This document shows positions 1-13,113 of a stretch of 36,061 nucleotides of DNA, in pieces. This DNA comes from an uncultured Pirellula sp. Lineage in GTDB: Bacteria; Planctomycetota; Planctomycetia; Pirellulales; Pirellulaceae. Made by a program: the position numbers and the translations under genes. Below the pieces are notes generated by a model, which did not search any database, was not told where the DNA came from, and saw nothing but the letters and a program-made list of their open reading frames with translations. The stretch spans positions 1 to 36,061 of the forward strand of contig CAIYZV010000177.1 in the NCBI GenBank assembly GCA_903930765.1. The letters are read 5' to 3'. Within the stretch, counting starts at the first letter, position 1; every line of letters begins with the position of its first letter.

Positions 1-660
1 AAGTACAAACCTCAGCTATCCGCCTACATGACCTACTTGGAACGCAAATGCCCAGAAGGAAGCGATTCCGGCATGCGTCTTCTCGCAATTCCATCGACCG
101 AACGACTCAAACGATTGCTGGCCTACATGCTCGATGAAAAGGAGTTCCTCTCACCATTTGGTATACGCTCCCTCTCGGCCGCTCATCTTTCAAACCCATT
201 TGTGTTCGACTACGACGGTGGCACTAGCTCCGTCAGCTACGTTCCGGGCGAAAGCAATTCGGGAATGTTCGGTGGCAACAGCAATTGGCGAGGCCCCGTC
301 TGGTTCCCCCTCAACTACTTACTCGTGGAATCACTCAGGCATTACCATGAGTACTACGGTGACGAATTTACCGTGGAATGCCCCACCGGGTCCGGGCACC
401 ACCTCAACCTGATGCAAGTAGCTGACGAAATCGAACGGCGACTCGTCCACTTGTTCAAAGCCACACCCGATGGACAGCGTCCCTGCCATGGAGACAACGC
501 ACGCTACGCCACCGACCCTCACTGGAAAGACTTGATTCTCTTTTACGAATACTTCCACGGCGACAATGGAAAGGGACTCGGTGCAAACCACCAAACGGGA
601 TGGACCGCGCTGGTCGCATCCATTCTTGAACACCAAGCCAAATCTCGTGAGAACGCTTGA
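1..660 (+). CDS. GH63/MGH1-like glycoside hydrolase, C-terminal part (5' end outside window)
   Basis: The open frame runs in from the window edge without a start, so only the last 219 residues are seen. The visible part matches the end of the alpha/alpha-toroid catalytic domain of GH63-like (mannosyl-oligosaccharide-glucosidase-like) enzymes: a GMFGGNSNWRGPVW segment at about positions 268-303, followed by WFPLNYLL, and near the end LGANHQTGWTALVA. These aromatic and acidic patches line the sugar-binding groove in the family. Bacterial members hydrolyse alpha-glucosidic or related linkages in glycerate-containing or other small glycosides; the true substrate cannot be told from this fragment. 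The 3' end overlaps the next gene by 14 nt, suggesting cotranscription. Family call is fairly firm, substrate unknown. Confidence 0.8.
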   Translation, partial: KYKPQLSAYMTYLERKCPEGSDSGMRLLAIPSTERLKRLLAYMLDEKEFLSPFGIRSLSAAHLSNPFVFDYDGGTSSVSYVPGESNSGMFGGNSNWRGPVWFPLNYLLVESLRHYHEYYGDEFTVECPTGSGHHLNLMQVADEIERRLVHLFKATPDGQRPCHGDNARYATDPHWKDLILFYEYFHGDNGKGLGANHQTGWTALVASILEHQAKSRENA

Positions 661-1528
661 GCTGTATGCCGGAATAGGCGGATTGTCGGCCGCGTGCCCG
701 TGGCTCGAAATCGTCCATGCGGTGGATATCAACGCCGATAGTCGCGATTGGTATCAACTCAATTTCGATGCGCCGTACGCACTACGCGAACTGGAATCGG
801 TTCCCGCGCGGTGGCTGGAACAACACCACGCCGAACTGTGGTGGATGAGCCCCCCCTGCACACCTTACACTCGGCGGGGCAATCAGAACGATGCGCACGA
901 TCCTCGCGCTCAATCGTTCCTGCATCTGATCGATTGCGTCCAACACGTCCAACCGCCTTGGGTTGTCGTTGAAAACGTGGTCGGCTTTGAAACCTCCCGA
1001 ACGCATGCCCAGATGAAGGCCGTATGGGAACAAGCGGGATACCAGGTCGAAACGCTGACGAAATGCCCGAGCGAATTGGGCTGGCCGAATCGTCGCCCAC
1101 GGATTTATGTGGTGGCTTCACGATCGAACCTGCCGCGATTCCAATTCACTAGATCGTCCAACCACTCCATTCATGCCTACCTCGATCCCAGTATCACTGG
1201 AAGGAGCGCCCCGCAACTCTGGCTCGACGAACGCGTCGCTTCGCGATACCTGCATTCACTCCACCGCGTCGACCCCGCGGAACCAGATGCCATCACATCC
1301 TGCTTCGCTTCATCGTATGGCAAAGTTATCAATCGGGCGGGTTCCTACCTGCTTGCCGAGGGTGCCCTTCGGCGTTTTTCGCCCCGCGAAGTCGCAAACC
1401 TCCTCGGTTTCAGCCCAAACTTTCAAATCCCCACCCATCTGAAAGACACTCGAAAGTGGCAACTGCTCGGCAACTCGTTATCATTGCCCGTGATCCAACA
1501 ACTGCTTAACGTTACGCGCACTTCCTAG
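647..1528 (+). CDS. Dnmt2/TRDMT1-like cytosine-C5 methyltransferase (probable tRNA C38 methylase)
   Basis: A 293-residue protein with the full cytosine-C5 methyltransferase motif set: motif I RTLELYAGIGG (residues 2-12, SAM binding), motif IV MSPPCTPYTRRG with catalytic Cys71, motif VI VENVVGFE (Glu109), motif VIII NRRPR (148-152), motif IX-X RRFSPREVANLLGFSP and LLGNSLS. The wording of these motifs is that of eukaryotic Dnmt2: MSPPC then TR.G..D..D.R..SFLH, ENV.GFE, the CF-containing segment followed by YG (Cys219-Phe220-Ala221, CFT in human DNMT2), and F.P.E.ANLLGF. The recognition domain is short, as in Dnmt2, unlike restriction-linked enzymes, and no endonuclease gene is adjacent. Start chosen as GTG 647, which places the conserved N-terminus at residue 2; an ATG at 566 would add 27 non-conserved residues. 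No clear ribosome binding site, but it overlaps the upstream stop. tRNA activity is inferred from the family, including known bacterial Dnmt2 proteins. Confidence 0.85.
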   Translation: MRTLELYAGIGGLSAACPWLEIVHAVDINADSRDWYQLNFDAPYALRELESVPARWLEQHHAELWWMSPPCTPYTRRGNQNDAHDPRAQSFLHLIDCVQHVQPPWVVVENVVGFETSRTHAQMKAVWEQAGYQVETLTKCPSELGWPNRRPRIYVVASRSNLPRFQFTRSSNHSIHAYLDPSITGRSAPQLWLDERVASRYLHSLHRVDPAEPDAITSCFASSYGKVINRAGSYLLAEGALRRFSPREVANLLGFSPNFQIPTHLKDTRKWQLLGNSLSLPVIQQLLNVTRTS

Positions 1529-1564: not shown

Positions 1565-3283
1565 ATGTCGAAACGCATCTGGACTCCGTGCTGCTTCTTA
1601 TGGATCGCACTCCTCGTCTCCGTCTCCGTCGCTCAAAACCAGAACGACATCGATGCTACCCAGCCGAGAATGGCAAAGGCTCTCTCATCGGTGCAGCGCA
1701 CTGCGATGCCTCCAAACTTCATGGTTATCCTTTGCGATGATTTAGGCTTTTCGGACATCGGCGTCTACGGTAGCGAAATCAATACGCCAAATTTGGACCG
1801 TTTGGCAAAAAACGGCGTTCGATTTCAACAGTTCTACAACACAGCCCGATGCTGGCCGACGCGGGCGGCATTGCTTACGGGATATTACGCCCAACAAGTC
1901 CGACGCGATACGGTGGAGGGGATCCCAAGCGGCGCGCAAGCAAAACGGCCTCGTTGGGCAAAGCTCTTACCCGAACGCCTGAAGAAGTACGGTTACCGCT
2001 CGTATCATTCAGGAAAATGGCATGTCGACGGGTCACCACTCGCCGGTGGGTTCGACCGTTCCTACAGCCTCCAAGACCACGACCGACATTTCAACCCAAA
2101 GAATCATACGCTCGACGATCAGCCATTACCCCCCGTAGGTAAAGGCGACAAATACTACTCGAGCACGGCGATCGCACAGTACGCCATCGACCAACTCAAC
2201 GAGCATCAACAATCCTTTCCTGAAAAGCCCTTCTTTTCATTCATAGCATTCACCGCCCCTCACTTTCCCCTGCATGCCCCGCAACCCATCGTCGATCGTT
2301 ATCGTGCGAAGTATCAGGACGGATGGGATGCGGTTCGCGAACGCCGGTGGGAGTCGATGAAGGACTCTGGTATTGCCTCAAAACCATCCTCAGTCGAGCA
2401 GTCCGTCGGTCCTCCATACGCGTTCCCCGACGCAATCCAGAAACTCGGCCCAGGGGAACTCAACCTCCCTAAACCGTGGCACGAATTGAACGAGGAGCAA
2501 AAGGGGTTTCAAATCGACAAGATGGCAGTCCACGCGGCGATGATCGATTGTATGGATCAAGAGATCGGACGCATCGTTGATTGGTTAAGCACCCACAAGA
2601 AATTCGAGGACACGCTGATCCTGTTCCTTTCTGATAACGGTGCTAGCGCCGAGATCATGGTGCGTGGTGATGGACATGATCCTCAGGCTCCCGCCGGATC
2701 TGCGGCCACTTTCTTAAGCCTTGGACCAGGTTGGTCCACCGTCAGCAACACTCCCTTTCGCCGCCACAAAACATGGGTTCATGAAGGGGGCATCAGTACC
2801 CCAATGATCGCCCATTGGCCTGCGACCATTGCTCCAAATCCAATGGCCATCGCAGCTCCGCATCACGTCATCGACATAGCACCAACGTTGCTGGAAATCG
2901 CCGACAAAGCGATCGGCAATGGCGGAGCAGACGATGGGAACGTCGAATGGCCCGGACCAACCCCAGCCGGGCAGAGTTTTGTTTCGGAATTAACGGCCAC
3001 GCGAAAACCGGAACGGGACGATGCATCACCGGCCGCATCCTCTCCCACCGAGCGAGTCCTTTGGTGGCAACACGAGGGTAACAAAGCCCTGCGTTGGGGA
3101 AATTGGAAACTAGTGGCGGCTGGAAAGAATGCTCCGTGGGAACTGTACGACATGGAACACGATCGTATTGAGTCGAACAACCAAGTCGCAATGCATCCTG
3201 AAATCGCAGCGAAACTAGCCGCGAAATGGGAACAAATTCAAGCGGAGAATGCCGCGCTCGCTAAGTCCGATGATGCAAAATAA
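1565..3283 (+). CDS. secreted arylsulfatase-family hydrolase (formylglycine sulfatase)
   Basis: A 572-residue alkaline-phosphatase-superfamily sulfatase. An N-terminal signal peptide (about residues 1-23, hydrophobic core FLWIALLVSVSVA, likely cleaved near AQ) indicates export. The metal-binding start FMVILCDDLGFSDIG (Asp58/Asp59) and the sulfatase signature CWPTR at residues 96-100 are intact; Cys96 would be converted to formylglycine by a sulfatase-modifying enzyme encoded elsewhere. GKWH (about 150), APHFPLHAP and LSDNGA supply the remaining metal and substrate ligands. Length is typical of the family. It cleaves sulfate esters, in planctomycetes usually from algal polysaccharides; the precise substrate is unknown. 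It starts 36 nt after the Dnmt2-like gene on the same strand, with no convincing Shine-Dalgarno. Confidence 0.93.
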   Translation: MSKRIWTPCCFLWIALLVSVSVAQNQNDIDATQPRMAKALSSVQRTAMPPNFMVILCDDLGFSDIGVYGSEINTPNLDRLAKNGVRFQQFYNTARCWPTRAALLTGYYAQQVRRDTVEGIPSGAQAKRPRWAKLLPERLKKYGYRSYHSGKWHVDGSPLAGGFDRSYSLQDHDRHFNPKNHTLDDQPLPPVGKGDKYYSSTAIAQYAIDQLNEHQQSFPEKPFFSFIAFTAPHFPLHAPQPIVDRYRAKYQDGWDAVRERRWESMKDSGIASKPSSVEQSVGPPYAFPDAIQKLGPGELNLPKPWHELNEEQKGFQIDKMAVHAAMIDCMDQEIGRIVDWLSTHKKFEDTLILFLSDNGASAEIMVRGDGHDPQAPAGSAATFLSLGPGWSTVSNTPFRRHKTWVHEGGISTPMIAHWPATIAPNPMAIAAPHHVIDIAPTLLEIADKAIGNGGADDGNVEWPGPTPAGQSFVSELTATRKPERDDASPAASSPTERVLWWQHEGNKALRWGNWKLVAAGKNAPWELYDMEHDRIESNNQVAMHPEIAAKLAAKWEQIQAENAALAKSDDAK

Positions 3284-3369: not shown

Positions 3370-3933
3370 TTAGAAGTACATTCCTTGGAAGGCAAAGTAG
3401 CCAAGGGCTGCGATCGTCATCGGGATTCCGTAGGGGAGCAAGTACATCCGAGGCTTTCGCTCGGCCGCTCGCTGGAACAATGCCTCAGGGTCTTTCACCT
3501 CAAAAAACTCACCGATGAGCATGTTGAACTGCTGAAAGTGCTTCTTCCAACGCCCTGAGTAAGCGACCATAAGAAGAGCCATAATCCCACCAACGATCGC
3601 AGTCGTGGCGAAAATATTCCATGTATGTTGAGCGTGGACCCATGCACCGATGCCAGCTAGTAACTTCACGTCACCGGCGCCCATGCCACCGACCATGTAG
3701 ATGCCGTAAAGGAGACCGAGTCCGAAAAAGGTCCCGAGTAAACTCCAACCGAGACCTTCCATGCCTCCAGTCGCTACGCTGTAAATCCAGCCCGTTGCGA
3801 TCATCGGAAACGTAATCCAATTTGGAACCTTCAGCTTCCATCCATCGATCACAGCGGCTACCACGAGAACGATCGAAACCACCCAAATATGCCAATGTGC
3901 AATAATACCGTTAACCAAGTTGGTGGATTCCAT
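3370..3933 (-). CDS. type IV prepilin peptidase, A24 family (CpaA/TadV-like)
   Basis: A 187-residue polytopic membrane protein. It is an aspartic protease of the A24A fold that cleaves the leader of Flp-type prepilins at the inner face of the cytoplasmic membrane. The two catalytic aspartates are visible: Asp30 in VVAAVIDGWKLKVPNWITFP and Asp88 in the GxGD motif MGAGDVKLL. It lacks the N-terminal methyltransferase and zinc-binding domain of PilD, as in CpaA/TadV. About five hydrophobic segments follow one another, and the C-terminus is RMYLLPYGIPMTIAALGYFAF. Start ATG 3933 places the first membrane helix near residue 15; the frame is open to 4098 but the extension has no family resemblance. 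It lies downstream of Flp pilin genes on the same strand, their obvious substrates. Confidence 0.88.
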   Translation of the reverse strand: MESTNLVNGIIAHWHIWVVSIVLVVAAVIDGWKLKVPNWITFPMIATGWIYSVATGGMEGLGWSLLGTFFGLGLLYGIYMVGGMGAGDVKLLAGIGAWVHAQHTWNIFATTAIVGGIMALLMVAYSGRWKKHFQQFNMLIGEFFEVKDPEALFQRAAERKPRMYLLPYGIPMTIAALGYFAFQGMYF

Positions 3934-4217
3934 TTCCGATAATCCTTGTGGCTTGTGAATAAAAACAATGAGGTTGCGCGACGGCGCGCCGCAATTCCTG
4001 ACTAGCATGACCTGAGAACCGCCGTGGAGCGGATTTTGATCAGCGTCAGCTTCCCAAAATATCTGTTGCAGCTTATCGGGGAGCCAATATCCAAGCAAAG
4101 GCTGCGAAGAACAGCGTTCCGCAACAGCAGGTAATTTCCCACAGGCTTCCGAGCGCTTCGACTGGGTAGTTTGTAAGAAACATGGATGACTCCAAGTAAA
4201 CGGCCCTGAGATCTAAT

Positions 4218-4268
4218 CACGAGACCGGTTCGCCGAGACAATCTGTCACCGGCTACCGGTTTCTCGTG
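4218..4268. promoter_or_regulatory. long imperfect inverted repeat between flp pilin and prepilin peptidase genes
   Basis: CACGAGACCGGT (4218-4229) pairs with ACCGGT-TT-CTCGTG (4255-4268), a 12-bp stem with a 2-nt bulge and a 25-nt loop. In the minus-strand transcript it lies after the first Flp pilin stop (4362) and before the prepilin peptidase start (3933). No T-tract follows, so an attenuator or mRNA-stabilising 3' hairpin is as likely as a terminator. The rest of the 428-bp gap 3934-4361 shows no gene. Confidence 0.5.
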
Positions 4269-4277
4269 GTCATTTAG

Positions 4278-4305
4278 CGGGGCCCAAGACAGCGTCTCTG
4301 CCCCG
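4278..4305. promoter_or_regulatory. second stem-loop after the flp pilin gene
   Basis: CGGGGC (4278-4283) pairs with GCCCCG (4300-4305), and the interior contains a further AGAC/GTCT pairing, giving a compact GC-rich hairpin 57 nt downstream of the pilin stop on the minus strand. There is no T-run. Together with the neighbouring inverted repeat it may limit read-through into the peptidase gene or protect the pilin mRNA; both roles are inference. Confidence 0.4.
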
Positions 4306-4361
4306 AGATCCGAACAGTACCAATCACAACGTGTGCGAGTCGGCCTGTTCGACGTTTCAAA

Positions 4362-4544
4362 CTAGCTTGATGTTCCAAGCTGGTTTGCAACGTTGGTGAA
4401 CGTTGTTGCAGCGTTCTTACCAATGCTGGTTACAGCGGTGATACATACAACGATGATGAGCGACAACATAACCGCGTATTCAACCGCGGTTGGTCCGTCT
4501 TCACTCTTCAAGAAACGCTTCATCTTCATGGCGAAATTCTTCAT
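4362..4544 (-). CDS. Flp-type pilin (copy 1)
   Basis: A 60-residue Flp/Fap pilin, the structural subunit of Tad (type IVc) pili. It has a basic leader MKNFAMKMKRFLKSEDG, the prepilin cleavage site G|PTAVEYA with the diagnostic Glu-Tyr pair five and six residues after the cut, then a single hydrophobic helix MLSLIIVVCITAVTSIG and a short polar tail ending LGTSS. Start ATG 4544 is set by a strong ribosome binding site GGAGGG six nt upstream; the frame is open further upstream but without pilin features. It is nearly identical to the copy at 5283-5465, so the pair arose by tandem duplication. The adjacent A24 peptidase is the likely processing enzyme. Confidence 0.92.
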   Translation of the reverse strand: MKNFAMKMKRFLKSEDGPTAVEYAVMLSLIIVVCITAVTSIGKNAATTFTNVANQLGTSS

Positions 4545-5282
4545 GTTACCCTCCGGCAGGTCGCTCGGCTTTACGAGCAAACAGTTTCTAAATTCTCGCA
4601 TACCAACCACTAAACAGTCGCCACTGTCCAGGATCCGTAGCAAGAGTTCGATCTGTCTCGGACCATTCCAAATCCAGATCAGCGTTTGACAATTCACGCC
4701 GTACCAAACTTACGACAGGATTAGGGAGAGTCAAAAAATTCCGTTTGGGAAACTTGAATCATTTACGTCCCGTGACCTGACGTTCTATCCAAAGAGGTGC
4801 GAATGCAGGGGATTTACCGACTGCGCGTTGCATTCTCCCTCCAGCAATCCCCGATACGCTACTTGGGGATGGGTATCGCCAGGATTATCGAGATAGTTCC
4901 GCTTGAGTCTAACCTGCCATCAGCATTAGTGGGAATGAGTGTTGATGAGTGTTCTTTCACCATCGTCACTTCACGAATGAGAGCGGAACACTAAGCTCCA
5001 CGGCTCTACACTAATTGAGCAACCCATTGCAACGATGGGTGACAGCGATTCACTTCAAGCGTCGATCTGATTGGTGACCACAGGACATTTATTCCGATCG
5101 CGAGCCGCTCGTCGGAATCAAGGTATTACGACGTTATTTCCAATGACAGGTCAGTCCGACGGTGTGTACACAATCTCCGTAGATGGGCGCGAGGTTTCGA
5201 TAAACACTTCCGATGATGGCAAAAAAAAACTCCGACCAAAGGCCGGAGTTTTTTGATTCCGTGGAGCGAACCAATCTCGCAC
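4545..5282. other. 738-bp intergenic region between flp copies
   Basis: No convincing gene was found. Short open frames (for example 4797-4994 +) have no ribosome binding site and no recognisable product. It must contain the promoter of pilin copy 1 (minus strand, above 4560), but no unambiguous -35/-10 or sigma-54 motif could be picked out. The terminator of copy 2 lies at its right edge. Confidence 0.5.
5221..5254 (-). terminator. intrinsic terminator of flp copy 2
   Basis: CTCCG (5230-5234) pairs with CGGAG (5244-5248); the inner ACC/GGC adds two pairs around an AAA loop. The hairpin is flanked by nine A on the left and six T on the right, so it can terminate in either direction; the natural user is the minus-strand pilin gene ending 28 nt away at 5283. 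Confidence 0.88.
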
Positions 5283-5465
5283 TTAGCTTGAAGTACCGAG
5301 CTGGGCAGAAACGTTGGTAAACGTCGTCTTGGCTTTGGAACCGATACTGGTTACGGCAGTGATGCAGACGACGATGATCAAAGACAACATAACTGCATAC
5401 TCAACTGCAGTTGGACCGTCTTCACTCTTCAAAAAACGCTGAATCTTTTGTGCAAAACTCTTCAT
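5283..5465 (-). CDS. Flp-type pilin (copy 2)
   Basis: A 60-residue Flp pilin: basic leader MKSFAQKIQRFLKSEDG, cleavage motif G|PTAVEYA, hydrophobic helix identical to copy 1 through CITAVTSIG, and C-terminal QLGTSS. The two copies differ only in the leader and in the segment after TSIG (SKAKTTFTNVSA against KNAATTFTNVAN), so the processed helix is under strong constraint. ATG 5465 follows a good ribosome binding site (GGAAGG, 6 nt spacing). It has its own terminator, so copy 2 is probably transcribed independently and strongly, as expected for a major pilin. The rest of the Tad machinery is not in the window. Confidence 0.93.
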   Translation of the reverse strand: MKSFAQKIQRFLKSEDGPTAVEYAVMLSLIIVVCITAVTSIGSKAKTTFTNVSAQLGTSS

Positions 5466-11744: not shown

Positions 11745-13113
11745 TTCACGCAAACCACCTGCTCGACCTCGCCTCGAGAGCCTCGACCAGTTTCGCGGTT
11801 ATGCGGTGGCATCGATGGTCGTCGTCAATTTCCTCGGGGCATTCGCCGTTACTCCGCGGGTCCTAAGACACACCAACGACTACTGCAGTTACGCCGATAC
11901 GGTGATGCCCCACTTCCTCTTCGCGGTAGGATTTGCGCTCGCAATCGTTTGGGGACGAACCGCGACATCCGGCGCCGACTCTCAACGCCGTACGCAATGG
12001 CGCCTGGTGCGTCGCTCTCTGACGCTTGCCGCCGTAGCATTTCTGCTTTACTTCCCATGGGGAACAAACAACCTGACAACGCAGTTTTTCGAACCGAGTT
12101 TTTGGTTTTCCGTGTTCAAGCGAGACTGGTTCCAAACACTTACCCATATCGCTGCAACCACGCTTTGGATGCTCCCGATGCTGCGATGGGGACTGGTAGG
12201 ACGTTCCGTTTGGTTAGCCACAAGCGCCTTGCTTCATGCGTGCCTCTCCGAGGAATTCTATTTCCACTGGGTCCACGCATCACCGGGAGGTATCGATGGC
12301 GGACCACTCGGATTTCTAACCTGGCTAATCCCAGCCTCCATGGGTCTATGGGCGGGTGAGGCGATGCAGCGACTCGATCCAAGAACTCTCGAAGCATTAC
12401 CACTGGCGAGTGCCAAGAAAACCCTTCGAGCAAAATGCCTGCTTGTAGCCTGCGTTCTTATGCTCCTAGGCTATTCGATGTCATGCTTCACCCGCCACTT
12501 TGACAGGAACGACCGTGGAATTGAATCAAGCCAAAAGTTGGCGGAAAGCCCAGTGCTCGGCGTAGGATTCCCAACCGACAGCGAGAACAACGACAGCGGG
12601 AACAACGACAGCGGGAACAACGACAGCGGGAACAACGACAGCGGGAACAACGACAGCGGGAACAACGACAGCGGGAACAACGACAGCGGGAAAAACGACA
12701 GCGGCACGCCCCACGCAAGCTCATCCGGTGCGTGGCAACACTTCCTCGCAGAGCCACCCTTTGTCCCACCACCCAGCTATCCCAAGCGCGCTTGGAACTA
12801 TTGGATGATGAGTCAGAAGGCGGGAGCGTTGTCCTACCAAATCTTTGCAGGTGGACTGTCCCTATTGGTCTTCTTAATCTTCGACTGGGCGTCGGAACGC
12901 TTTCGGAGCAGATGGAACCCACTGACCACGTTGGGACGAAATGCGATCGCTTGCTACATCGCCCACGGTTTTTTGATCGATGCAATCTCGTCAGGATGGC
13001 TCCAAAAGACATCCCCAGAATCCCATGTTCTGCTGGGACTTTTTCTCGTCCTGTCGGCCACCTTCGGGCTCGCAAAGTTCCTGGAATGGCGAGGTATCTT
13101 TTTGCGGCTGTAG
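11725..13113 (+). CDS. NagX/HGSNAT-like membrane N-acetyltransferase family protein
   Basis: A 462-residue polytopic membrane protein of the acyltransferase superfamily that includes heparan-alpha-glucosaminide N-acetyltransferase and bacterial NagX-like proteins. The family start RLESLDQFRGYAVASMVVVNF (first helix) and YADTVMPHFLFAVGFALAI are clear. About ten hydrophobic segments follow, ending GRNAIACYIAHGFLIDAI and FLEWRGIFLRL. Members transfer acyl groups from cytosolic donors across the membrane onto amino sugars or other acceptors. Start TTG with a strong ribosome binding site, overlapping the previous gene by 20 nt. Odd: residues 288-327, in a polar loop between membrane helices, are eight tandem NNDSG/KNDSG units encoded by a near-perfect 15-bp repeat. 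The acceptor is unknown; modification of a surface glycan is a guess. Confidence 0.85.
   Translation: MNPTNADSRKPPARPRLESLDQFRGYAVASMVVVNFLGAFAVTPRVLRHTNDYCSYADTVMPHFLFAVGFALAIVWGRTATSGADSQRRTQWRLVRRSLTLAAVAFLLYFPWGTNNLTTQFFEPSFWFSVFKRDWFQTLTHIAATTLWMLPMLRWGLVGRSVWLATSALLHACLSEEFYFHWVHASPGGIDGGPLGFLTWLIPASMGLWAGEAMQRLDPRTLEALPLASAKKTLRAKCLLVACVLMLLGYSMSCFTRHFDRNDRGIESSQKLAESPVLGVGFPTDSENNDSGNNDSGNNDSGNNDSGNNDSGNNDSGNNDSGKNDSGTPHASSSGAWQHFLAEPPFVPPPSYPKRAWNYWMMSQKAGALSYQIFAGGLSLLVFLIFDWASERFRSRWNPLTTLGRNAIACYIAHGFLIDAISSGWLQKTSPESHVLLGLFLVLSATFGLAKFLEWRGIFLRL
12586..12705 (+). repeat. eight 15-bp tandem repeats (coding, NNDSG)
   Basis: Seven units of AACAACGACAGCGGG are followed by one variant AAAAACGACAGCGGC, without spacers. 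The DNA identity between units is complete, beyond what the protein requires, which points to recent expansion by slippage. The unit is a multiple of three, so changes in copy number lengthen the loop without breaking the reading frame. Confidence 0.97.

Follow-up and report, generated by a model that had tools for sequence, protein, structure and literature searches.

A predicted Dnmt2-type RNA methyltransferase of a Pirellula species and its probable tRNA-Glu target

The product of a gene located close to the beginning of the window (the whole stretch of 36,061 nucleotides of an uncultured Pirellula sp. that was analysed here) appears to be a true bacterial Dnmt2, a membership that is well supported by sequence, tree, and predicted fold. 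The main target of this enzyme in its host is most likely tRNA-Glu(UUC), with tRNA-Asp of the same organism having A at position 38.

The gene, its motifs, and its family

The gene (647–1528, forward strand) is predicted to encode a Dnmt2-type C5-cytosine RNA methyltransferase of 293 residues, an assignment that draws on the translation, Pfam, ranking against the PDB, a tree, AlphaFold2, and Foldseek. The longest open reading frame opens earlier, at position 566; the start is placed at GTG 647 because the alignment of the family begins there and a GTG is found at the same place in seven loci. The stop codon occupies positions 1526–1528. Motif IV, MSPPCTPYTRRG (residues 67–78, positions 845–880), carries the presumed catalytic Cys71 (857–859), and is followed by motif VI, ENVVGFE (residues 109–115, positions 971–991), by CFASSYG, located where Dnmt2 carries CFT (residues 219–225, positions 1301–1321), and by motif IX, RRFSPREVANLLGF (residues 242–255, positions 1370–1411), which aligns with LRYFTPKEIANLLGF of human DNMT2. 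The reading frame and four motifs quoted in an earlier note on this DNA were all found in the translation.

In an alignment of 24 sequences, residues Ser68, Pro69, Pro70, Cys71, and Pro73, as well as Glu109, Asn110, and Val111, are invariant, and so are Arg150, Arg152, Cys219, and Gly275, with Phe220, Asn276, and Ser277 nearly so; the motif set of C5-methyltransferases (PPC, ENV, RxR, GNS) is thus present. PF00145 is the sole domain found by Pfam in the protein (E = 3.6e-30, residues 1–288 of 293), with no companion domains, and this gene is the only match to PF00145 in the host genome (assembly 96% complete, in 527 contigs). The dN/dS values of two near orthologues against the window gene, at 86% and 76% identity, are 0.20 and 0.14, respectively (calculated with our own NG86 script), and values as low as these indicate that the protein is under purifying selection. 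This is a real gene, with an intact reading frame and intact catalytic motifs.

A single-sequence search of the PDB places five distinct Dnmt2 sequences at the top (E from 1.5e-38 to 6.3e-28), with HhaI next at 2.3e-14, and a profile built from 11 orthologues leaves the order, Dnmt2 before HhaI, unchanged. A control query, the planctomycete DNA methyltransferase L047, ranks DNMT1 and HhaI above Dnmt2 in the same search. With the AlphaFold2 model of the protein (mean pLDDT 96.1), ranks 1–9 in Foldseek are occupied by Dnmt2 chains from S. pombe, Entamoeba, human, and Spodoptera, and HhaI appears from rank 10. The fold, the motifs, the CF signature, and the clade in the tree are common to the predicted enzyme and eukaryotic Dnmt2/TRDMT1 (human 1g55 and 9hgm, S. 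pombe Pmt1 6fdf, Spodoptera 4h0n, and Entamoeba 3qv2), although the identity in the Foldseek alignments is 26–30%, the planctomycete enzyme is shorter than the solved eukaryotic chains (293 residues compared to 327–348), and it has CFA where they have CFT. The bacterial DNA C5-cytosine methyltransferases M.HhaI and Dcm also have the superfamily, the fold, and the catalytic motifs in common with it, but M.HhaI ranks below the Dnmt2 chains in both the PDB and Foldseek searches, whereas Dcm stands apart in the tree.

Two trees were calculated. The first left out four truncated loci (L153, L164, L187, L188) and retained only L038 of the orthologues from the genus survey, as the same genes recur among the loci of the peptide scan described below. 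The more careful one, from which four near-copies were also left out (L155, L174, L176, L183), comprises 62 rows: four eukaryotic Dnmt2 sequences, 40 bacterial relatives, and 18 DNA methyltransferases that include E. coli Dcm, plasmid and phage enzymes, and planctomycete PF00145 proteins; Geobacter Dnmt2 and DNMT6 are not among its rows. In the careful tree, the four eukaryotic sequences and the 40 bacterial relatives form a clade, supported at 99/98, against the 18 DNA methyltransferases. The eukaryotic Dnmt2 sequences form a single clade (99/93), and the bacterial relatives all lie on one side of a branch supported at 90/85. When the 19 planctomycete-side rows were forced together with eight rows of Dcm and restriction–modification (R-M) enzymes, the AU test rejected the arrangement (−94 log units, p = 2.1e-5); forcing all 40 bacterial rows with the same eight gave −79 log units (p = 8.6e-5). 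Membership of the product among R-M or Dcm enzymes is rejected on the strength of the 99/98 clade and these tests. The earlier note had preferred Dnmt2 to an R-M methylase and had named a phylogeny as the check; this preference is borne out by the sequence ranking, the tree, the AU test, and the predicted fold, and the clustering with R-M or Dcm enzymes that would have spoken against it did not occur in this tree.

The CFT signature is taken as a reliable mark of Dnmt2 in a 2011 study (PMC3227630), and the CFA of the window protein counts to that extent against the assignment. The signature varies among the bacterial relatives. The site is reached in 41 loci (two of the 43 being truncated before it), which have CFT in 29 cases, CFA in six, CFG in four, and CFI and CIT (L162) in one each. 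On the Obscuribacter side, 22 of the 23 loci complete at this position have CFT, while planctomycete-side loci vary in the third residue, with CFA or CFG in many Pirellulaceae and CFT in some members of the same genus; CFA is therefore compatible with Dnmt2, and CFT alone is no strict test. The suggestion of the earlier note that substrate choice might differ because of CFA is accordingly a weak one: within the genus, the hosts of CFA, CFG, and CFT enzymes do not differ in tRNA-Asp (A38) or, as far as it was found, in tRNA-Glu (C38), which leaves CFA unsupported as a cause of a change of substrate.

Two other readings of the protein itself may be weighed at this point. An orphan DNA C5-cytosine methyltransferase merely resembling Dnmt2 would share a fold and motifs that are common to all C5 methyltransferases, and it would fit with the best NCBIfam match being the general dcm model (90.5 bits, below the cut-off of 100.65), with CFA in place of CFT, and with PPCT where the animal Dnmt2 enzymes have PPCQ. 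The tree, the AU test, and the PDB and fold rankings oppose this reading, however, there is no nuclease partner, and no close relative is found among the phage, plasmid, or viral-contig matches listed; we consider it decidedly improbable. Even less probable, to the point of being far-fetched, is an RNA methyltransferase of Dnmt2 fold that acts on tRNA or another RNA away from C38, or that is nearer to the eukaryotic DNMT6 than to Dnmt2. A 2025 study does tie both DNMT2 and DNMT6 to RNA and does not find them monophyletic (PMC12344493), and DNMT6 is missing from the present tree, but the CF(T) signature, retained as CFT in nearly all the complete Obscuribacter-side relatives, as well as the direct ranking of the protein to Dnmt2, argues against it.

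Genomic context and distribution

Upstream of the gene lies a GH63/MGH1-like glycoside hydrolase gene (1–660, forward strand, identified by Pfam), of which only the 3′ portion is present because the contig begins within it; it shares 14 nucleotides with the beginning of the Dnmt2 gene. Downstream lies a sulfatase gene (1565–3283, forward strand) that clusters with the sulfatase of L148 (PF00884). The 14-nucleotide overlap, with its GTG start and an upstream gene of one cluster, is seen in seven loci (the window, L146, L147, L148, L149, L151, and L164), and the sulfatase lies 3′ of Dnmt2 in the window, L146–L149, L151, and L153. No restriction endonuclease adjoins the gene, its neighbours being the glycosidase and the sulfatase, so that the earlier note was right in seeing no restriction partner; a Spiroplasma plasmid enzyme, in contrast, has a restriction endonuclease annotated beside it. 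The glycosidase gene was found in all 27 genus genomes. In other members of the genus Dnmt2 is sited elsewhere (L150, L152, L155, L161), and in four genomes lacking any Dnmt2 match (G004, G013, G017, G019) the glycosidase is followed directly by the sulfatase. These four empty sites, together with the absence of the gene from some members of the genus, indicate that the Dnmt2 gene is dispensable.

Two features elsewhere in the window may be recorded here. A prepilin-peptidase-like reading frame and two similar Flp-pilin-like ones (4362–4697 and 5283–5465, minus strand), judged by eye, are located in the region 3370–5465, and a large membrane-protein-like reading frame contains a 15-base tandem repeat (12576–12704, 8.6 copies, 98% matching) that is translated as repeated Asn-Asp-Ser-Gly-Asn.

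The context on the Obscuribacter side is a different one. In 10 of the 24 loci (L160, L174–L176, L178, L179, L181, L183, L184, L186), a gene of a single cluster closely follows or overlaps Dnmt2; four members of this cluster were scanned, and all are RNA pseudouridine synthases resembling RluE. All ten loci belong to one subclade and the arrangement therefore counts as one event; as such, it is consistent with a role in RNA.

Dnmt2 is present in 12 of 25 genomes of the genus, that of the window included, with the other 11 proteins at 42–86% identity to the window protein; of two further genus genomes outside these 25 (G040 and G041), G041 is the thirteenth that carries it. Among 15 genomes of other families, nine have no match, and the PF00145 proteins of the other six all group with DNA methyltransferases in the tree. 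A sample of 294 genomes of the phylum gave four strong matches (at least 297 bits, the window included) and three weak ones (138 bits or less); the latter (G070, G092, G274) were dropped as Dnmt2 candidates because the tree groups them with DNA methyltransferases.

When genome_contigs, described as covering 84,980 species, was searched for two conserved peptides, 43 relatives emerged, a lower bound, as such a scan misses more distant members. They are assigned to Pirellulaceae and other planctomycetes, to Obscuribacterales/Melainabacteria/Cyanobacteria, or, in some cases, only to a bacterium, and single records are titled Riflebacteria, Holophagaceae, Actinobacteria, and Proteobacteria. The titles of metagenome-assembled genomes can be wrong: the loci titled Proteobacteria (L185, genome G065) and Actinobacteria (L163, genome G049) both come from genomes listed in the order of G064, the genome of Candidatus Obscuribacter phosphatis (L184). 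In the order of Candidatus Obscuribacter, a match is present in 33 of 53 genomes (weakest best E = 2.6e-69), interrupted by a stop codon in two (G049, G053). Phage records gave one match, at 21% identity to the Dnmt2 protein, and the 15 plasmid matches listed of 52 are all at 25% identity or less; one search of viral contigs gave none, and in another the best 80 of 182 matches all fall below 30%. An origin of the gene from a phage or plasmid was rejected, as the matches listed are all below 30% identity.

Judging from these counts, Dnmt2 is more common in bacteria than the published record suggests. The rarity assumed in the earlier note holds for the phylum sample, with its four strong matches, but neither for this genus nor for the Obscuribacter order. 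No report of Dnmt2 in planctomycetes or Melainabacteria was found in the literature searched, which excluded most subscription papers.

Position 38 in the tRNAs of the Dnmt2-bearing hosts

The 39 tRNAs found in the host have A at position 38 in 32 cases, U in four, G in one, and C in two; the assembly being in pieces, this set may be incomplete, Lys(TTT) being one tRNA that it lacks. The only two with C38 are Glu(TTC), with the loop CTTTCAC, and His(GTG), with the loop TTGTGGC, which are thus the only possible C38 substrates among them. The loop of tRNA-Asp(GTC), CTGTCGA, has G37 and A38, and position 38 is A or U in the Gly and Val tRNAs identified. According to a review, the substrates of mammalian Dnmt2 include tRNAs for Gly and Val besides Asp (PMC5372726); with A or U at 38 in all three, these substrates are absent in the host. 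The inspection of host tRNAs for C38 proposed in the earlier note therefore has a divided outcome, positive for tRNA-Glu and negative for tRNA-Asp, with C38 present in tRNA-His as well.

The genus survey was based on the best-matching loci of 27 genomes, in which tRNA genes were called. All 28 tRNA-Asp genes called in these genomes have CTGTCGA (A38), and a 29th (G012), cut by a contig end, is identical over bases 1–60. The activity on tRNA-Asp that the earlier note had assumed by analogy is thus not supported. In tRNA-Glu, CTTTCAC (C38) is found in 24 of 24 genes, the tRNA not having been found in three genomes (G001, G013, G017), of which G001 has Dnmt2. The tRNA-His genes are divided, with C38 in 18 and U38 in seven of the 25 called (L023, L117–L143). 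Within the genus, among Asp, Glu, and His, only tRNA-Glu has C38 in every Dnmt2-bearing genome in which it was found.

The presence of C38 in all tRNA-Glu genes found in the genus, with A38 in tRNA-Asp, makes tRNA-Glu the likely substrate. A main role for tRNA-His(GUG) C38, either alone or together with tRNA-Glu, in an enzyme that is Dnmt2 by descent, is an unlikely alternative to be weighed against it. C38 is present in the host tRNA-His, and it is found in 11 of 13 Dnmt2-bearing genus genomes compared to six of 11 without Dnmt2 (a table compiled by hand for the 24 of 27 genomes in which tRNA-His was called), but this difference, calculated with kinship ignored, is not significant (Fisher p = 0.18). 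Moreover, G011 and G021 have Dnmt2 and a tRNA-His called as U38, and the loop TTGTGGC has neither C32 nor A37, both of which are present in the tRNA-Glu loop CTTTCAC.

With tRNA-Glu as the preferred target, the enzyme would methylate C38 of tRNA-Glu(UUC) in the host; that the substrate is RNA rather than DNA, that the position is 38, and that the tRNA is tRNA-Glu are all steps that we infer. Its role would be a modest and dispensable one in translation, in the decoding or protection of tRNA-Glu. The host tRNA-Glu has U34, while human DNMT2 needs G34 or I34, and a 2021 paper reportedly describes position 34 as a discriminating element for the human enzyme. A TGT gene is present in the host; queuosine is described as confined to GUN anticodons, so that it is not expected on tRNA-Glu (PMC5372726). 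The same review states that the bacterial glutamyl-queuosine enzyme requires C38 (PMC5372726), and with A38 in tRNA-Asp glutamyl-queuosine may be absent in these planctomycetes.

The closest characterised counterpart is the bacterial Dnmt2 of Geobacter sulfurreducens (GSU0227), for which tRNA-Glu is the published substrate (PMC5372726, Table 1; PMC4860778). In Geobacter, tRNA-Glu is described as a preference, with low activity on tRNA-Asp (PMC5456315), whereas in the planctomycete tRNA-Asp has no C38. The latter paper prints the target position of the Geobacter enzyme as cytosine 28 (PMC5456315).

The tRNA-Asp of 25 other Dnmt2-bearing genomes was searched by pattern, with matches in 19, and ARAGORN was run on 30 retained loci. 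ARAGORN called CTGTCGA (A38) in G043, G046, and G052, whose titles name a planctomycete, and in G042, whose title says no more than bacterium. It called CTGTCAC (C38) in 11 Obscuribacter-side genomes, as well as in G045 and G059; G044, of the Pirellulaceae, has CTGTCGA by pattern alone. The division into A38 and C38 is not a clean one, since the tRNA-Asp of G053 is called as A38 (L212) and has C38 by pattern only, and G045 and G050 have additional tRNA-Asp genes in which position 38 is A or G. The tRNA-Glu pattern matched 13 of the 25 genomes, with CTTTCAC, by pattern only, in G042, G043, and G052 among others. At two loci (L202, L212), tRNA genes are densely arrayed and include additional tRNA-Asp copies lacking C38; the genomes concerned also have C38 copies or pattern matches. 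Besides the genus itself, four planctomycete-side genomes with Dnmt2 have a tRNA-Asp with G37 and A38 (L009, L063–L090, L203, L205, L206, L214).

Bearing on the history of Dnmt2

Jurkowski and Jeltsch (2011) describe bacterial Dnmt2 as known only in Geobacter and as possibly transferred there from eukaryotes (PMC3227630). The deep bacterial clade seen here, with members in 33 of the 53 Obscuribacter-order genomes and in about half of the planctomycete genus, reopens the direction of this history. In AU tests with four eukaryotic sequences and without Geobacter, none of three arrangements was rejected: a clade of planctomycetes with eukaryotes (p = 0.349), a clade of the Obscuribacter side with eukaryotes (p = 0.407), and a Dnmt2 group from which planctomycetes branch off first (p = 0.216). 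A recent transfer from a eukaryote to Pirellula has left no sign, the bacterial rows all lying on one side of the 90/85 branch, with the first of these three arrangements not rejected.

We can tentatively speculate that Dnmt2 may be an old bacterial family of tRNA methyltransferases (Obscuribacter order, Pirellulaceae, and scattered others), inherited or acquired by eukaryotes, rather than one that arose in eukaryotes and reached Geobacter by a single transfer. If planctomycete tRNA-Asp is without C38 and Dnmt2 there serves tRNA-Glu alone, tRNA-Glu may be an old substrate. The genus itself constitutes a natural experiment, with tRNA-Asp uniformly lacking C38, Dnmt2 present in some species only, and four empty sites; since close relatives differ in Dnmt2 while tRNA-Asp remains constant, the role that m5C38 may have in tRNA-Glu could be tested by comparing them.
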